Virus record (IMG/VR): IMGVR_UViG_3300020428_000007
Span: 124,001 to 188,000 of that record
From: a virus
Length of the DNA: 64,000 bases
Direction: 5' to 3' (one strand)
Shown: piece by piece, positions 22,331 to 63,945 of the stretch
Layout: each line of letters opens with the position of its first letter
How positions within the stretch are numbered: position 1 is the first letter of the stretch
Translations under genes and position numbers: made by a program
The notes under the pieces: model-generated
The model's input: the letters and a program-made list of their open reading frames with translations, nothing else
Told to the model about the DNA's origin: nothing
Database searches by the model: none

Positions 22331-23974
22331 TTATAGTGTTGCGCGTGAACCAGTTGGATTCACATTGAACGTTACGTGAATTCGCTTAGCCGCGATAACA
22401 GGGTCCATTACCATATCTAGAACTAGATCACCATTGGCAATTGTATCGTTAGTGTTGTTTCGTTCATCACAAATGTTCTGATACTCGTAAACACCACGAC
22501 CTAAACGAATAGGTTCTAGAATTGAATCAGCAATACCACGAATTCTATCACGTAGTAACTGATCGTTTGGACGGAACACACCGCGCAGTGCTGAACGCTG
22601 TGCAGTTTTAAGAACGTAGTTTACTAGGCGAACAACGTTAACGTACTGGAATGCAGTTGCATCTTTCTGAGTAGTTTGTTGTCCCCAAATGACATAACCG
22701 CCACCACGAGGCATTTTGCGAATTGGATTGATTTGAGCCTTATCCAATGCATCACGAGCACCTTGATCATAGTGAACACGAGTACCAAGAATTTCAAGAG
22801 TACCTAGTTCGATACCAGCAGGAGCAAACCATAGCGCACGATTGTTATCAGCTTTGGCAAATGATGCAGCTACATAACCGCTTGGTGGTACATATAGCTC
22901 TAGGTCATTAACCGAATCGTATACGAGAACGTCACTTCCATAAATAGCACTAGCACGGCTAGACATATTAAGAATGTTGTTCTTGTAGTTAATCGCGTCT
23001 GCTACTTCTTGCTTATCGCTAGGTAAGTCTAGGATAGCAACACTATCGCCACGACCTAAAGAGATTTCATTTAATGCATGATGTACAGTGTGGTGAGTAT
23101 ATCCGCAGTTAACAAGAATATCGATATCGACTTCTTCTGGGTCGCTGTAATGCTCTTGCCAAGCTTCGATGATTTGATCGTTAGTTACTGGAAGACCGTC
23201 GCTACCGCCGTCTAGAACAATGCTAGCTTTAGATACGATTTGGAATTCTGAACACAGGTCATTGTTCTTAACGCGAATCAGTTTAGACTTCTTGTTAATA
23301 ACATCTTCGATGAATAGCTGATTGCCTTCTTCATCAACTTCATGATGACGAGTAACAAGAAACGATTCATCAGGACGCGTCTGACCTGTAGCTTTAGCAG
23401 CAAACACATCTACGTAGAAGTGTAATGGGTTATGACCGTTACCGCGAATAGCAACACCAGCAGGATTAGATGGACGTACTTGAACTACGACACCGTTGTT
23501 CCATTCACCTGGGTCAGCAGCACAGAAGTACGCTACCAAGTTAGAAACGCCTGGAGTTGTTGGGGTAAAGCCAAGTGTATTAAGAGGGTCTTCGATGCCT
23601 TCTGGATCATTCGTTGTTTGATTAGTCCAGTTACTCATTGCCAACTGAGGGTTCTGAGCATTAACATCGTCAACTGTAAGGTAAGTACCGGCTGTCAGCG
23701 CTTTGTTAACTACACGAGTTACATAGCACATGCTAGACTGGTAAAGGAAAGGTTCAACTGAATAGTACATATAACCAAATTCAGGACCGCCAGCACCAAA
23801 TTGTGCTTTATAGTCTGCGAAATCAGTTACCAATGTACGTTGACCTACAGGGCCGCGTGGTGCGCCGCCAACAAATGCTGCAATAGAGCTTGGAGCATTT
23901 GCAGGGCGTTCACTTAAATCTTTGATATAAGTGTATACCCCGTAAGCTGGATTAGATGGATTTATGATAGACAT
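22331..23974 (-). CDS. contractile tail sheath protein
   Basis: The 547-residue sequence has the order and motifs of phage tail sheath proteins. The N-terminal part carries AAFVGGAPRGPVGQRTLVTDFADYKAQFG, so SIAAFVGGAPRGP-like and FADYKAQFG motifs. A long middle domain follows, then a C-terminal part with the RGGGYVIWGQQT motif (here PRGGGYVIWGQQ), LRDRIRGIADSILEPI and the closing strand RIHVTFNVNPTG. Sheath subunits stack around the tail tube and contract to drive it into the host cell. This identifies the phage as a myovirus. AGGGAG lies 5 bases before the ATG. A promoter-like sequence sits upstream at 24032-24059. Confidence 0.95.
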   Translation of the reverse strand: MSIINPSNPAYGVYTYIKDLSERPANAPSSIAAFVGGAPRGPVGQRTLVTDFADYKAQFGAGGPEFGYMYYSVEPFLYQSSMCYVTRVVNKALTAGTYLTVDDVNAQNPQLAMSNWTNQTTNDPEGIEDPLNTLGFTPTTPGVSNLVAYFCAADPGEWNNGVVVQVRPSNPAGVAIRGNGHNPLHFYVDVFAAKATGQTRPDESFLVTRHHEVDEEGNQLFIEDVINKKSKLIRVKNNDLCSEFQIVSKASIVLDGGSDGLPVTNDQIIEAWQEHYSDPEEVDIDILVNCGYTHHTVHHALNEISLGRGDSVAILDLPSDKQEVADAINYKNNILNMSSRASAIYGSDVLVYDSVNDLELYVPPSGYVAASFAKADNNRALWFAPAGIELGTLEILGTRVHYDQGARDALDKAQINPIRKMPRGGGYVIWGQQTTQKDATAFQYVNVVRLVNYVLKTAQRSALRGVFRPNDQLLRDRIRGIADSILEPIRLGRGVYEYQNICDERNNTNDTIANGDLVLDMVMDPVIAAKRIHVTFNVNPTGSRATL

Positions 23975-44373: not shown

Positions 44374-44416
44374 TGGTATCTCCAACAGAAAATTTTTATC
44401 CTACACGTTAAATTAC

Positions 44417-57411: not shown

Positions 57412-57603
57412 TTAAGGTTGTTTTCGTCTTTCTAACATTGTATTAGCTAGTTCGTAAGACCAACTTGCAATTTGCGAATTACTTAAATTGGGCTTACTGA
57501 TTAAGATAGACTTCATTGCTTCAATAGCAATCTTATCGCGAAGCTCTACGAGATTTACTCGGCTTTCTTGATTTAGAGCGTAGTTTATTGTTTCTTGATC
57601 CAT
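57412..57603 (-). CDS. small phage protein, 63 aa
   Basis: ATG at 57603 with an AGAGGA site 8 bases upstream. The sequence has the loose pattern LRDKIAIEAMKSIL...ASWSYELANTMLERR, like the small phage proteins of LRDYFAA..A/AYEIADAMLKAR type. Its first 71 bases overlap the clamp loader 3' end in another frame. Function unknown. Confidence 0.6.
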   Translation of the reverse strand: MDQETINYALNQESRVNLVELRDKIAIEAMKSILISKPNLSNSQIASWSYELANTMLERRKQP

Positions 57604-58906
57604 CTTCTGAATCCTCTTCGTCTTCGTGTTCGATTATACCTAGTTCTCTAGGCTTGTTTCCAGCATCAGCACTAAGTCGTGCAAAGATTACATCTTCAAC
57701 AACCATTGAAGAGAAGCGAACACGCAAATGGTTAGCGGCATTGATAGCAGGCACAGTCAAAATAGTGTGATGTGCTTTATCCAGAATGTCAGCAACCTTA
57801 ACAATCAAAGGCAAAGATACGTTAATCTTTTCTTTGTGCTTAGTTTCTAGATTCTTCTTAGCAGTGAAATAGCTCTTGCCGATAGGTGGAACATAGTTCA
57901 CTAACTTAACAACATAATCGGTATACCACTTCAAGAACCATGCAAGCTTGTTAATAAACTCGTGAGTGTTTTCTACTCGGCTAAGAATGTTCATCATTCC
58001 AAATAGGTCTTGGGACACAGTATACACAAAGAAAGATACAGCAAGCTTTTCACTGTCTGCGCCAGAAGACTGCTCATAAAGTTGAACAACTGATTTATCA
58101 TCTAGAGCCGCATCGCCTGAAGCAACAGCACTTAGCAATCCATCTAATTGAGAAAGAGCTAATCGCACTTGACCTTGAGAGTATTCGGCAATAGTCATTA
58201 ATGCGTCTTCAAGATTGTCTTCTTTAGAAGTCTCGATGCCTTCTAGCTCAACAATATCGTGTAGACGCTCAGCAATTAGTTCAGGCGCTACAGGTCTTAG
58301 TGCTAAGTCTTGGCAGCGATTGAACATAGTCTTTTTAATCTTGTCTACTTCGGTAGTACAAAGTATCCAAATAGTTTTAGGGCTTGGTTGTTCTAAAGGA
58401 ATTAATAGAGCTTCAAGCGCTTTACCAGATAGAAGATGAACTTCATCAACTATATTAAAGCGACGGCGGTAGCGAGGACTAGTGTTAGACGTAGCAACAA
58501 GATTACGCATATCGTCAACACCTGATTGCTCCCCTGCGTTAACGTAAGTAACATCGGGAAGTTCTTTTTCGTATGAACAGTAACTACATTTACCACATGC
58601 AGAAAGAGTTTCACAGTTCACGTAACGGGCGATAAGCATTGCAAGCGTTGTTTTGCCAGCACCAGTTTCACCGTGAATGAGAATAGTTTGAGGGAAAGTT
58701 TTGGACTTAATCCAACCTTTAATTTTCTTAACAGAGGCTTCCTGCCCAACATAGTCTTCAAGAACTTTAGGACGATATTGAGCAGCAAGATTTCGAGTGA
58801 CAATATCAAATGATTCATTTGACTCAGTACTCTTTTTAGAAGTGCGGGTTCTCGACGGTTTTTTAGTTCCAGTGCGAGTTCGTGCAGTACGTTGACGTTG
58901 TGCCAT
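57533..58906 (-). CDS. clamp loader large subunit (DnaX/gp44-like)
   Basis: AAA+ ATPase: QYRPKVLEDYVGQ (44-55), Walker A GETGAGKT (79-86), a zinc module with C98, C104, C107 and C110 (SACGKCSYC) as in bacterial DnaX, Walker B/DEVH (153-157), and sensor 1 WILCTTE followed by FNRCQ (the SRC-like box reads NRC). The basic N-terminus (residues 1-30, RTRTGTKKPSRTRTSKK) and a basic C-terminus are additions. The protein would load the clamp encoded at 29843-31156. Its leader carries a large inverted repeat. Confidence 0.9.
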   Translation of the reverse strand: MAQRQRTARTRTGTKKPSRTRTSKKSTESNESFDIVTRNLAAQYRPKVLEDYVGQEASVKKIKGWIKSKTFPQTILIHGETGAGKTTLAMLIARYVNCETLSACGKCSYCSYEKELPDVTYVNAGEQSGVDDMRNLVATSNTSPRYRRRFNIVDEVHLLSGKALEALLIPLEQPSPKTIWILCTTEVDKIKKTMFNRCQDLALRPVAPELIAERLHDIVELEGIETSKEDNLEDALMTIAEYSQGQVRLALSQLDGLLSAVASGDAALDDKSVVQLYEQSSGADSEKLAVSFFVYTVSQDLFGMMNILSRVENTHEFINKLAWFLKWYTDYVVKLVNYVPPIGKSYFTAKKNLETKHKEKINVSLPLIVKVADILDKAHHTILTVPAINAANHLRVRFSSMVVEDVIFARLSADAGNKPRELGIIEHEDEEDSEDGSRNNKLRSKSRKPSKSRRASR

Positions 58907-58951
58907 GTGCTATGTAACCTCAAAAGATTTTTGATACTAGTTGTATAGCAC
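58907..58951 (-). promoter_or_regulatory. inverted repeat in the clamp loader leader, candidate translational operator
   Basis: On the mRNA strand GTGCTATACAAC (58951-58940) pairs with GTTACATAGCAC (58918-58907): 7 perfect pairs, a 2x2 mismatch and 3 more pairs. The loop holds a second stem, TCAAAA-ATC-TTTTGA. The 3' arm ends directly before the ATG (58906), and the only purine tract (TGAGG) lies at the top of the outer stem. Folding would hide ribosome access. TGCTATACA on the same arm also resembles an extended -10 box, so a transcriptional role is an alternative. Confidence 0.45.
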
Positions 58952-58954
58952 ATA

Positions 58955-58966
58955 TTTACACTTTTT
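58955..58966 (-). promoter_or_regulatory. shared 12-base upstream element (TTTACACTTTTT)
   Basis: Second exact copy of the element seen before the polymerase gene (34707-34718), 49 bases before the clamp loader ATG and partly inside the end of the preceding gene's stop region (the upstream gene's stop codon is at 58965). The same element at two replication genes suggests coordinated control. Confidence 0.3.
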
Positions 58967-59600
58967 ACTTTCTAGCTTTGTAGTTGGAATTTCCAAAATA
59001 TCGAAGCGCTAACTGCATAGCTTTAGCTTTCCATTGAGGTACGCCTCTAATAAGCAAACTCAAATAGAATAAAAAGTCACTATTGTCTTTTGTTAGATAT
59101 CTAATACACTCAGTAGGAGTGTCTAGGTATCCTATATGCTCCAAACTCATTTCAATAGGAACACGATACATCAAGTCATGTAATACAGCAGGCTTAGCGG
59201 CACGACCTAATGGACTTACTAACCACCACAAGATTTGTGGACTGCTAACAAAATCAGTTACGAAGCCTGGGAGTATAACAATGTGAACGTATGTTTCAAC
59301 AATGTCATTACCTACATCGCGTTGTCGATTAATTGAAACCTCGTAACCTTTATTTGGATTCATGTATACCCAAAAGTAAAAGTCCATTGACTCTTTAAGA
59401 ATAAAGTCTTTGCCATTATCGTCAAGTTCAACGATTGGGTTTTGCAGAAACGTTTTAGTATACGGTCTAAAGTTTGGAAATTTGTGCGTTTGCACCGATC
59501 TGATTAGTGCTTTTCCTCTTATATGCTTAACCAGCTTTACAGTCTCACCTTTTTGTTGAGGGGCAGTTTCGGTAAAGTCTTTAAGAATCTCTGAATACAT
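58965..59600 (-). CDS. DUF1353 protein
   Basis: The segment PGFVTDFVSSPQILWWLVSPL followed by GRAAKPAVLHDLMYR (about 110-146) is the DUF1353 signature, found in many phages and some mobile islands. The family is of unknown function; the conserved Asp-Phe-x-Ser-x-Pro and HD pair suggest a metal-linked hydrolase or a structural role. Length (211) is somewhat above the usual 150-180 because of an N-terminal extension. TAA lies 58 bases before the clamp loader start. Confidence 0.75.
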   Translation of the reverse strand: MYSEILKDFTETAPQQKGETVKLVKHIRGKALIRSVQTHKFPNFRPYTKTFLQNPIVELDDNGKDFILKESMDFYFWVYMNPNKGYEVSINRQRDVGNDIVETYVHIVILPGFVTDFVSSPQILWWLVSPLGRAAKPAVLHDLMYRVPIEMSLEHIGYLDTPTECIRYLTKDNSDFLFYLSLLIRGVPQWKAKAMQLALRYFGNSNYKARK

Positions 59601-63754: not shown

Positions 63755-63945
63755 CAATTAAAAAATTCAGGTTAAAAAATCGATCACATATAATTAGTGT
63801 ATTAGTTTAGTTCAAAGAACTATTTACAGTTTTTCACTTTGCAGGCTTGTGAAAATCGAACAAAAAACAATCAATTTTTAACGACCTTCAACTTGTTCAT
63901 TTTCGTGGATTTTCAATTTACTATAGTATATACGCTCTGTGCTTA

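Follow-up and report, generated by a model that had tools for sequence, protein, structure and literature searches.

In bacteriophage T4, the genes e, soc, 49 and I-TevI carry a late promoter within a hairpin that sequesters the ribosome-binding site (RBS) (PMC3014915). Long transcripts of the lysis gene e and of the homing endonuclease gene I-TevI fold shut, whereas promoter-proximal transcripts without the 5' strand of the hairpin are translated (PMC3014915). T4 gene 43 also has a hairpin in its leader, some 40 bases before the start codon, and the polymerase binds it (PMC3014915).

Here we describe the leader of a clamp-loader gene in a 64,000-nt stretch of viral DNA (the window), which is part of an incomplete 200-kb viral contig. 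The leader resembles those of e, soc, 49 and I-TevI in that the Shine-Dalgarno (SD) sequence and the AUG are predicted to be paired in RNA initiated upstream, and in that the promoter overlaps the 5' arm, with a predicted start inside this arm. It differs in the gene it serves, a replication clamp loader and not a lysis or homing gene, and in its promoter: T4 late promoters use TATAAATA, which is read by gp55, whereas the promoter in the window is TGTAAATA and the phage is a jumbo phage of the PaBG/Lu11 group. TATAAATA occurs in 13 copies in this phage, none of them upstream of a gene, and the leader would thus work in a T4-like manner but outside the T4 late-promoter set. With the gene 43 operator the leader shares a hairpin before a replication gene; unlike that operator, its hairpin contains the SD and the AUG, and the loop is not conserved in relatives.

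The clamp-loader gene and its upstream neighbour

57533-58906, minus strand: clamp loader (DNA polymerase III gamma/tau-like), 457 aa, assigned by PHROG 5846, Pfam and identity to NCTB
58965-59600, minus strand: co-directional upstream DUF1353 gene, assigned by ORF list and domain match

Searches with the clamp-loader protein revealed PHROG 5846 'clamp loader of DNA polymerase' (E 4.9e-71) and Pfam DNA_pol3_delta2 (2e-22). Among annotated phages, NCTB is the closest at this gene with 55% protein identity, followed by the 'Lupandier' jumbo phages PaBG, Lu11 and those of Dickeya and Erwinia (31-39%; PMC7412058). The window phage belongs to the PaBG/Lu11/NCTB group of jumbo myophages. The start codon is the ATG at 58906-58904 on the minus strand, the only credible start because an in-frame TAG lies just upstream. 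A 63-aa ORF (57412-57603) overlaps the final 71 bases of the gene in a different frame and sits beneath the low-complexity basic C-terminal tail of the clamp loader.

The leader comprises 58 nt between the end of the DUF1353 gene (58965) and the ATG at 58906. On the minus strand the sequence from 58966 to 58907 reads AAAAAGTGTAAATATGTGCTATACAACTAGTATCAAAAATCTTTTGAGGTTACATAGCAC, followed by the ATG. No terminator-like site was found between the DUF1353 gene and the clamp loader, and the next upstream promoter found on the same strand is at 63828 (minus strand), which makes read-through RNA into the clamp-loader gene plausible. In the Dickeya and Erwinia phages and in G001 (IMGVR_UViG_3300033997_000243), the intrinsic terminator of the upstream operon stands directly before the clamp-loader promoter. 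The window phage is without this terminator and has an RBS hairpin instead; JA13 and G001 carry both.

Folding of the leader

58940-58953, minus strand: 5' arm of the outer hairpin, ATGTGCTATACAAC, overlapping the promoter end and the predicted start site (folding)
58905-58918, minus strand: 3' arm of the outer hairpin, GTTACATAGCACAT, covering the SD-AUG spacer and the AU of the start codon (folding)
58920-58934, minus strand: inner hairpin TCAAAA-ATC-TTTTGA, kept in the short transcript (folding)
58918-58921, minus strand: SD-like GAGG, 11 nt before the ATG (sequence)

The first-pass annotation had described a 12-base inverted repeat with 10 of 12 bases matching, which ends exactly at the ATG. 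The claimed pairing between GTGCTATACAAC and GTTACATAGCAC holds; its end point has to be shifted, as two more bases pair and take in the AU of the ATG. Folding of the leader with RNAfold, a check that the annotation had suggested, gave -15.6 kcal/mol (z -3.2), and 1 of 200 shuffled sequences folded as well. When the promoter motif and the ATG were held fixed and the rest was shuffled, the fold energy had a p value of 0.006. Among 217 leaders of this phage, for which all gene starts other than that of the clamp loader were picked by a simple script, the clamp-loader leader ranks 14th by plain folding energy, but in no other leader does an arm that pairs perfectly over at least 9 bp extend as far as the start codon. 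The purine-rich tract reported at the top of the outer stem is present as GAGG, positioned at the base of the inner stem and 11 nt from the AUG. The predicted fold buries both SD and AUG, which supports the earlier suggestion of a structured leader able to limit clamp-loader translation. A search of the window against Rfam 15 revealed no match above the gathering score, and a tRNA search found none.

The antisense strand of a tail-sheath-like gene (window 23718-23732) carries a perfect 15-base copy of GTTACATAGCACATG. Pairing in trans of the tail-sheath mRNA with the clamp-loader start through GTTACATAGCACATG was considered and rejected as probably due to chance, because matches of this kind elsewhere exist for 20 of the 217 leaders.

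A phage promoter element on the 5' arm

58953-58960, minus strand: phage promoter element AAAAGTGTAAATA with core TGTAAATA, preceded by AAAAG, predicted -10-like (enrichment, conservation, Lu11 annotation)
58944-58948, minus strand: predicted transcription start region, here CTATA (promoter alignment)
58942-58950, minus strand: extended -10-like TGCTATACA, not needed to explain the promoter (motif count)

The 5' arm of the hairpin carries a phage promoter that the first-pass annotation had missed. Of all 8-mers in this phage, its core TGTAAATA shows the strongest enrichment upstream of genes (10 of 25 copies at most 65 nt before genes, p 2e-9), and its copies usually read AAAA(C/G)TGTAAATA. 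Other copies stand before a baseplate gene and before genes that encode the sliding clamp, a topoisomerase II subunit, a 5'-3' exonuclease and a ParB-like protein. The copy before the clamp loader departs from the consensus, with GTG for CTG and CTA for GTA. In G001 and in the Dickeya phage JA13 the commonest upstream 8-mer is CTGTAAAT.

All 18 lineages that were compared in detail have the TGTAAATA element before the clamp-loader gene, and an alignment of the relatives' clamp-loader leaders showed, as their common feature, a TGTAAAT element about 25 to 55 nt upstream of the start. In the Lu11 record (JQ768459), the depositors labelled CTGTAAATAGTAGGTA / CTGTAAATANNNNGTA as a putative middle/late promoter, including a copy before the clamp loader. 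The Lu11 element CTGTAAATANNNNGTA is therefore the same as that in the window and stands at the same place, but it is known as a promoter by annotation only, and Lu11 is without the RBS hairpin. A literature search found no paper that describes TGTAAATA as a promoter element of phages. A sigma-70-family factor of the PaBG gene 118 type is present in NCTB, PaBG, Lu11, JA13, Alexandra, GR11A and G001, and a factor of this family, encoded by the phage, probably reads the TGTAAATA promoter. The partial 200-kb record of the window phage revealed no match for a phage sigma gene (sigma-70 domain, PaBG-type sigma). The extended -10-like sequence TGCTATACA noticed earlier is indeed present at 58942-58950, but its near-matches occur at chance frequency (21 found, 20.7 expected).

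A second upstream-enriched 8-mer in this phage, TAATTTAA, has 7 of 19 copies before genes (e.g. at window positions 44415 and 48761, minus strand). It is the top upstream 8-mer in Lu11 (8 of 13 copies before genes) and a candidate for a second promoter class. Elsewhere in the record of this phage, two TGTAAATA promoters lie on the 5' arm of terminator-like hairpins, one at 196117 on the plus strand (TGTAAATACCCAG..CTGGGTATTTTT) and one at 96465 on the minus strand (AAAGGGCTGC..GTAGCCCTTTTTTT). RNA from the promoter at 196117 would be without the 5' arm and would thus escape the terminator.

Predicted start site and opening of the ribosome site

An alignment of the promoters showed a GTA 5-7 nt after TGTAAAT in most clamp-loader leaders. 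This is the spacing expected from a -10 element to +1, so the GTA marks the likely transcription start. The equivalent position in the window is CTATA (58948-58944), within the 5' arm (58953-58940). Transcripts from the TGTAAATA promoter are thus predicted to start inside the 5' arm and to lose the outer stem.

The predicted cost of opening the region from -18 to +6 is 15.2 kcal/mol in read-through RNA and 7.2 kcal/mol in RNA from 58946, so that the ribosome site would be about 8 kcal/mol cheaper to open in the promoter-started RNA; the drop falls between the start points 58953 and 58948. The predicted probability that the AUG is unpaired rises from 0.06 in the read-through RNA to 0.52 in RNA from 58946. 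For GAGG the corresponding values are 0.01 and 0.12, and in the short RNA the weak inner hairpin is predicted still to cover part of GAGG.

On balance we regard the leader as probably a transcription-start-dependent translation switch for the clamp loader. Read-through RNA from upstream genes would hold both arms, and its outer stem would pair the SD-AUG region with promoter-derived sequence and leave the clamp loader untranslated. RNA begun at the TGTAAATA promoter of the phage would start in the 5' arm, have no outer stem and be translatable. Synthesis of the clamp loader would thereby be coupled to the use of its own promoter. The first-pass annotation had counted a transcript start inside the repeat against control by the leader. 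The promoter geometry predicts just such a start, yet in the proposed switch this becomes the mechanism, with only the read-through RNA folding shut.

Comparison with related phages

Neither arm nor loop of the hairpin has any sequence in common with the 22 other clamp-loader leaders. In NCTB, the nearest relative, a different gene lies upstream of the clamp loader, the start is an overlapping one, and there is no hairpin. A search for close relatives of the window phage found none; JA13 and JA29, the only usable pair of leaders, have unchanged arms and two changes in the loop.

Pairing between promoter and RBS was found at the clamp loader in four other lineages, with arms unrelated in sequence. 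In G001, GTAAATCCTAG pairs with CTAGAGGATTTAC (shuffle p 0.012), and in the Dickeya phages JA13, JA29 and JA33, CTGTAAATTCC pairs with GGAATTCAG (shuffle p 0.001 for JA13). Alcaligenes phage Afa-NA1 has AGGACT / AGTCCT over AAGGAG (shuffle p 0.017), and Yersinia phage fHe-Yen9-02 has AAGCAATA / TATTGTTT adjoining GGAG (shuffle p 0.019). The window leader gave p 0.059 for pairing of the pre-start segment with the RBS when the strictest, narrowest segment was used, and 0.031-0.043 with other segment choices. Including the window, the pairing is thus present in 5 of 18 lineages and absent in about 13, Lu11 among them. Over the 18 lineages, the combined Fisher value is 0.002 and the binomial probability of four lineages at p <= 0.05 is 0.011; the lineages are related, so their independence is approximate, and the test was chosen after the first few leaders had been seen. 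L084 has the promoter without the hairpin, although its 39% identity to the window phage equals that of the hairpin-bearing G001, which implies that the lock has been gained and lost.

Promoter-to-RBS pairing as a genome-wide rule was rejected: among 50 promoter-driven genes from four phages, 5 reached p <= 0.05 where 2.5 were expected (Fisher 0.13). The clamp loader accounts for three of these five, in three of the four phages. A promoter-to-RBS hairpin of 13 bp, near-perfect in its pairing, was also seen in G001, at a 233-aa gene that lies immediately before a gene for a FEN-like exonuclease (L053:8408-9109; G001 249109, minus strand). Its arms TAAATCTTTCT / GGAGAGATTTA give -12.3 kcal/mol, against 0 for RNA from the predicted start.

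Alternative explanations

The first-pass annotation had proposed, with T4 gene 43 as its example, that the clamp loader or another replisome protein binds the hairpin. This would be a translational operator with repression in the style of T4 gene 43, gene 32 or RegA. T4 replication proteins do regulate in this manner (PMC3014915), and here a replication gene has its ribosome site within the hairpin. A binding site of this kind is nevertheless unlikely, as most relatives lack the hairpin and none of the 22 other leaders offers a common arm or loop that a protein might recognise; the hairpin also engulfs the SD and AUG. Moreover, the 5' arm coincides with the promoter, so RNA derived from this promoter would be without the operator. 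Nothing specific speaks in favour of self-repression by the clamp loader. Even less probable is an operator at the DNA level, in which the inverted repeat is the binding site for a negative or positive regulator of the overlapping promoter, or TGCTATACA serves as an extended -10 for the host RNA polymerase. The inverted arms do flank the downstream side of the promoter and TGCTATACA does match an extended -10, but such near-matches are no more frequent than chance and none of the other promoters in the window carries the arm sequence. The reach of the 3' arm to the start codon is directly explained by RNA pairing, and what relatives keep is the pairing geometry and not the sequence.

The hairpin might also be incidental, with the promoter driving the gene and the inverted repeat having no regulatory effect. 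The restriction of the pairing to 5 of 18 lineages, the modest excess among the 50 promoter-driven genes and the 14th rank by folding energy all fit this explanation, which we consider unlikely rather than far-fetched. Against it stand the long perfect arm to the start codon, unique among the 217 leaders, the energy p value of 0.006 and the recurrence of the pairing at the clamp loader in unrelated sequence.

Implications

Start-dependent translation switches are known, and the gene and the phage group are new for this kind of control. The promoter at 63828 is of the same class as that of the clamp loader; a clean early/late division is therefore not supported, and the switch may serve to insulate the gene from read-through and not to divide early strictly from late expression. 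More tentatively, a replication-gene promoter of the PaBG/Lu11 group may repeatedly have evolved into an antisense of its own ribosome site. One short element would then be both promoter and translation lock for the clamp loader, and it would have arisen independently, each time with a different sequence, in five or more lineages; we hold this broader idea to be possible but not yet probable.

The proposed switch would extend the control scheme of T4 e, soc, 49 and I-TevI (PMC3014915) to a gene of the core replisome in an unrelated group of giant phages. It also provides a testable promoter element for the group, AAAACTGTAAATN4-6GTA, which stands before the genes of its clamp loader, sliding clamp, exonuclease and topoisomerase. 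If the switch operates as proposed, promoter choice and mRNA folding would jointly set the timing of the replisome in these phages.
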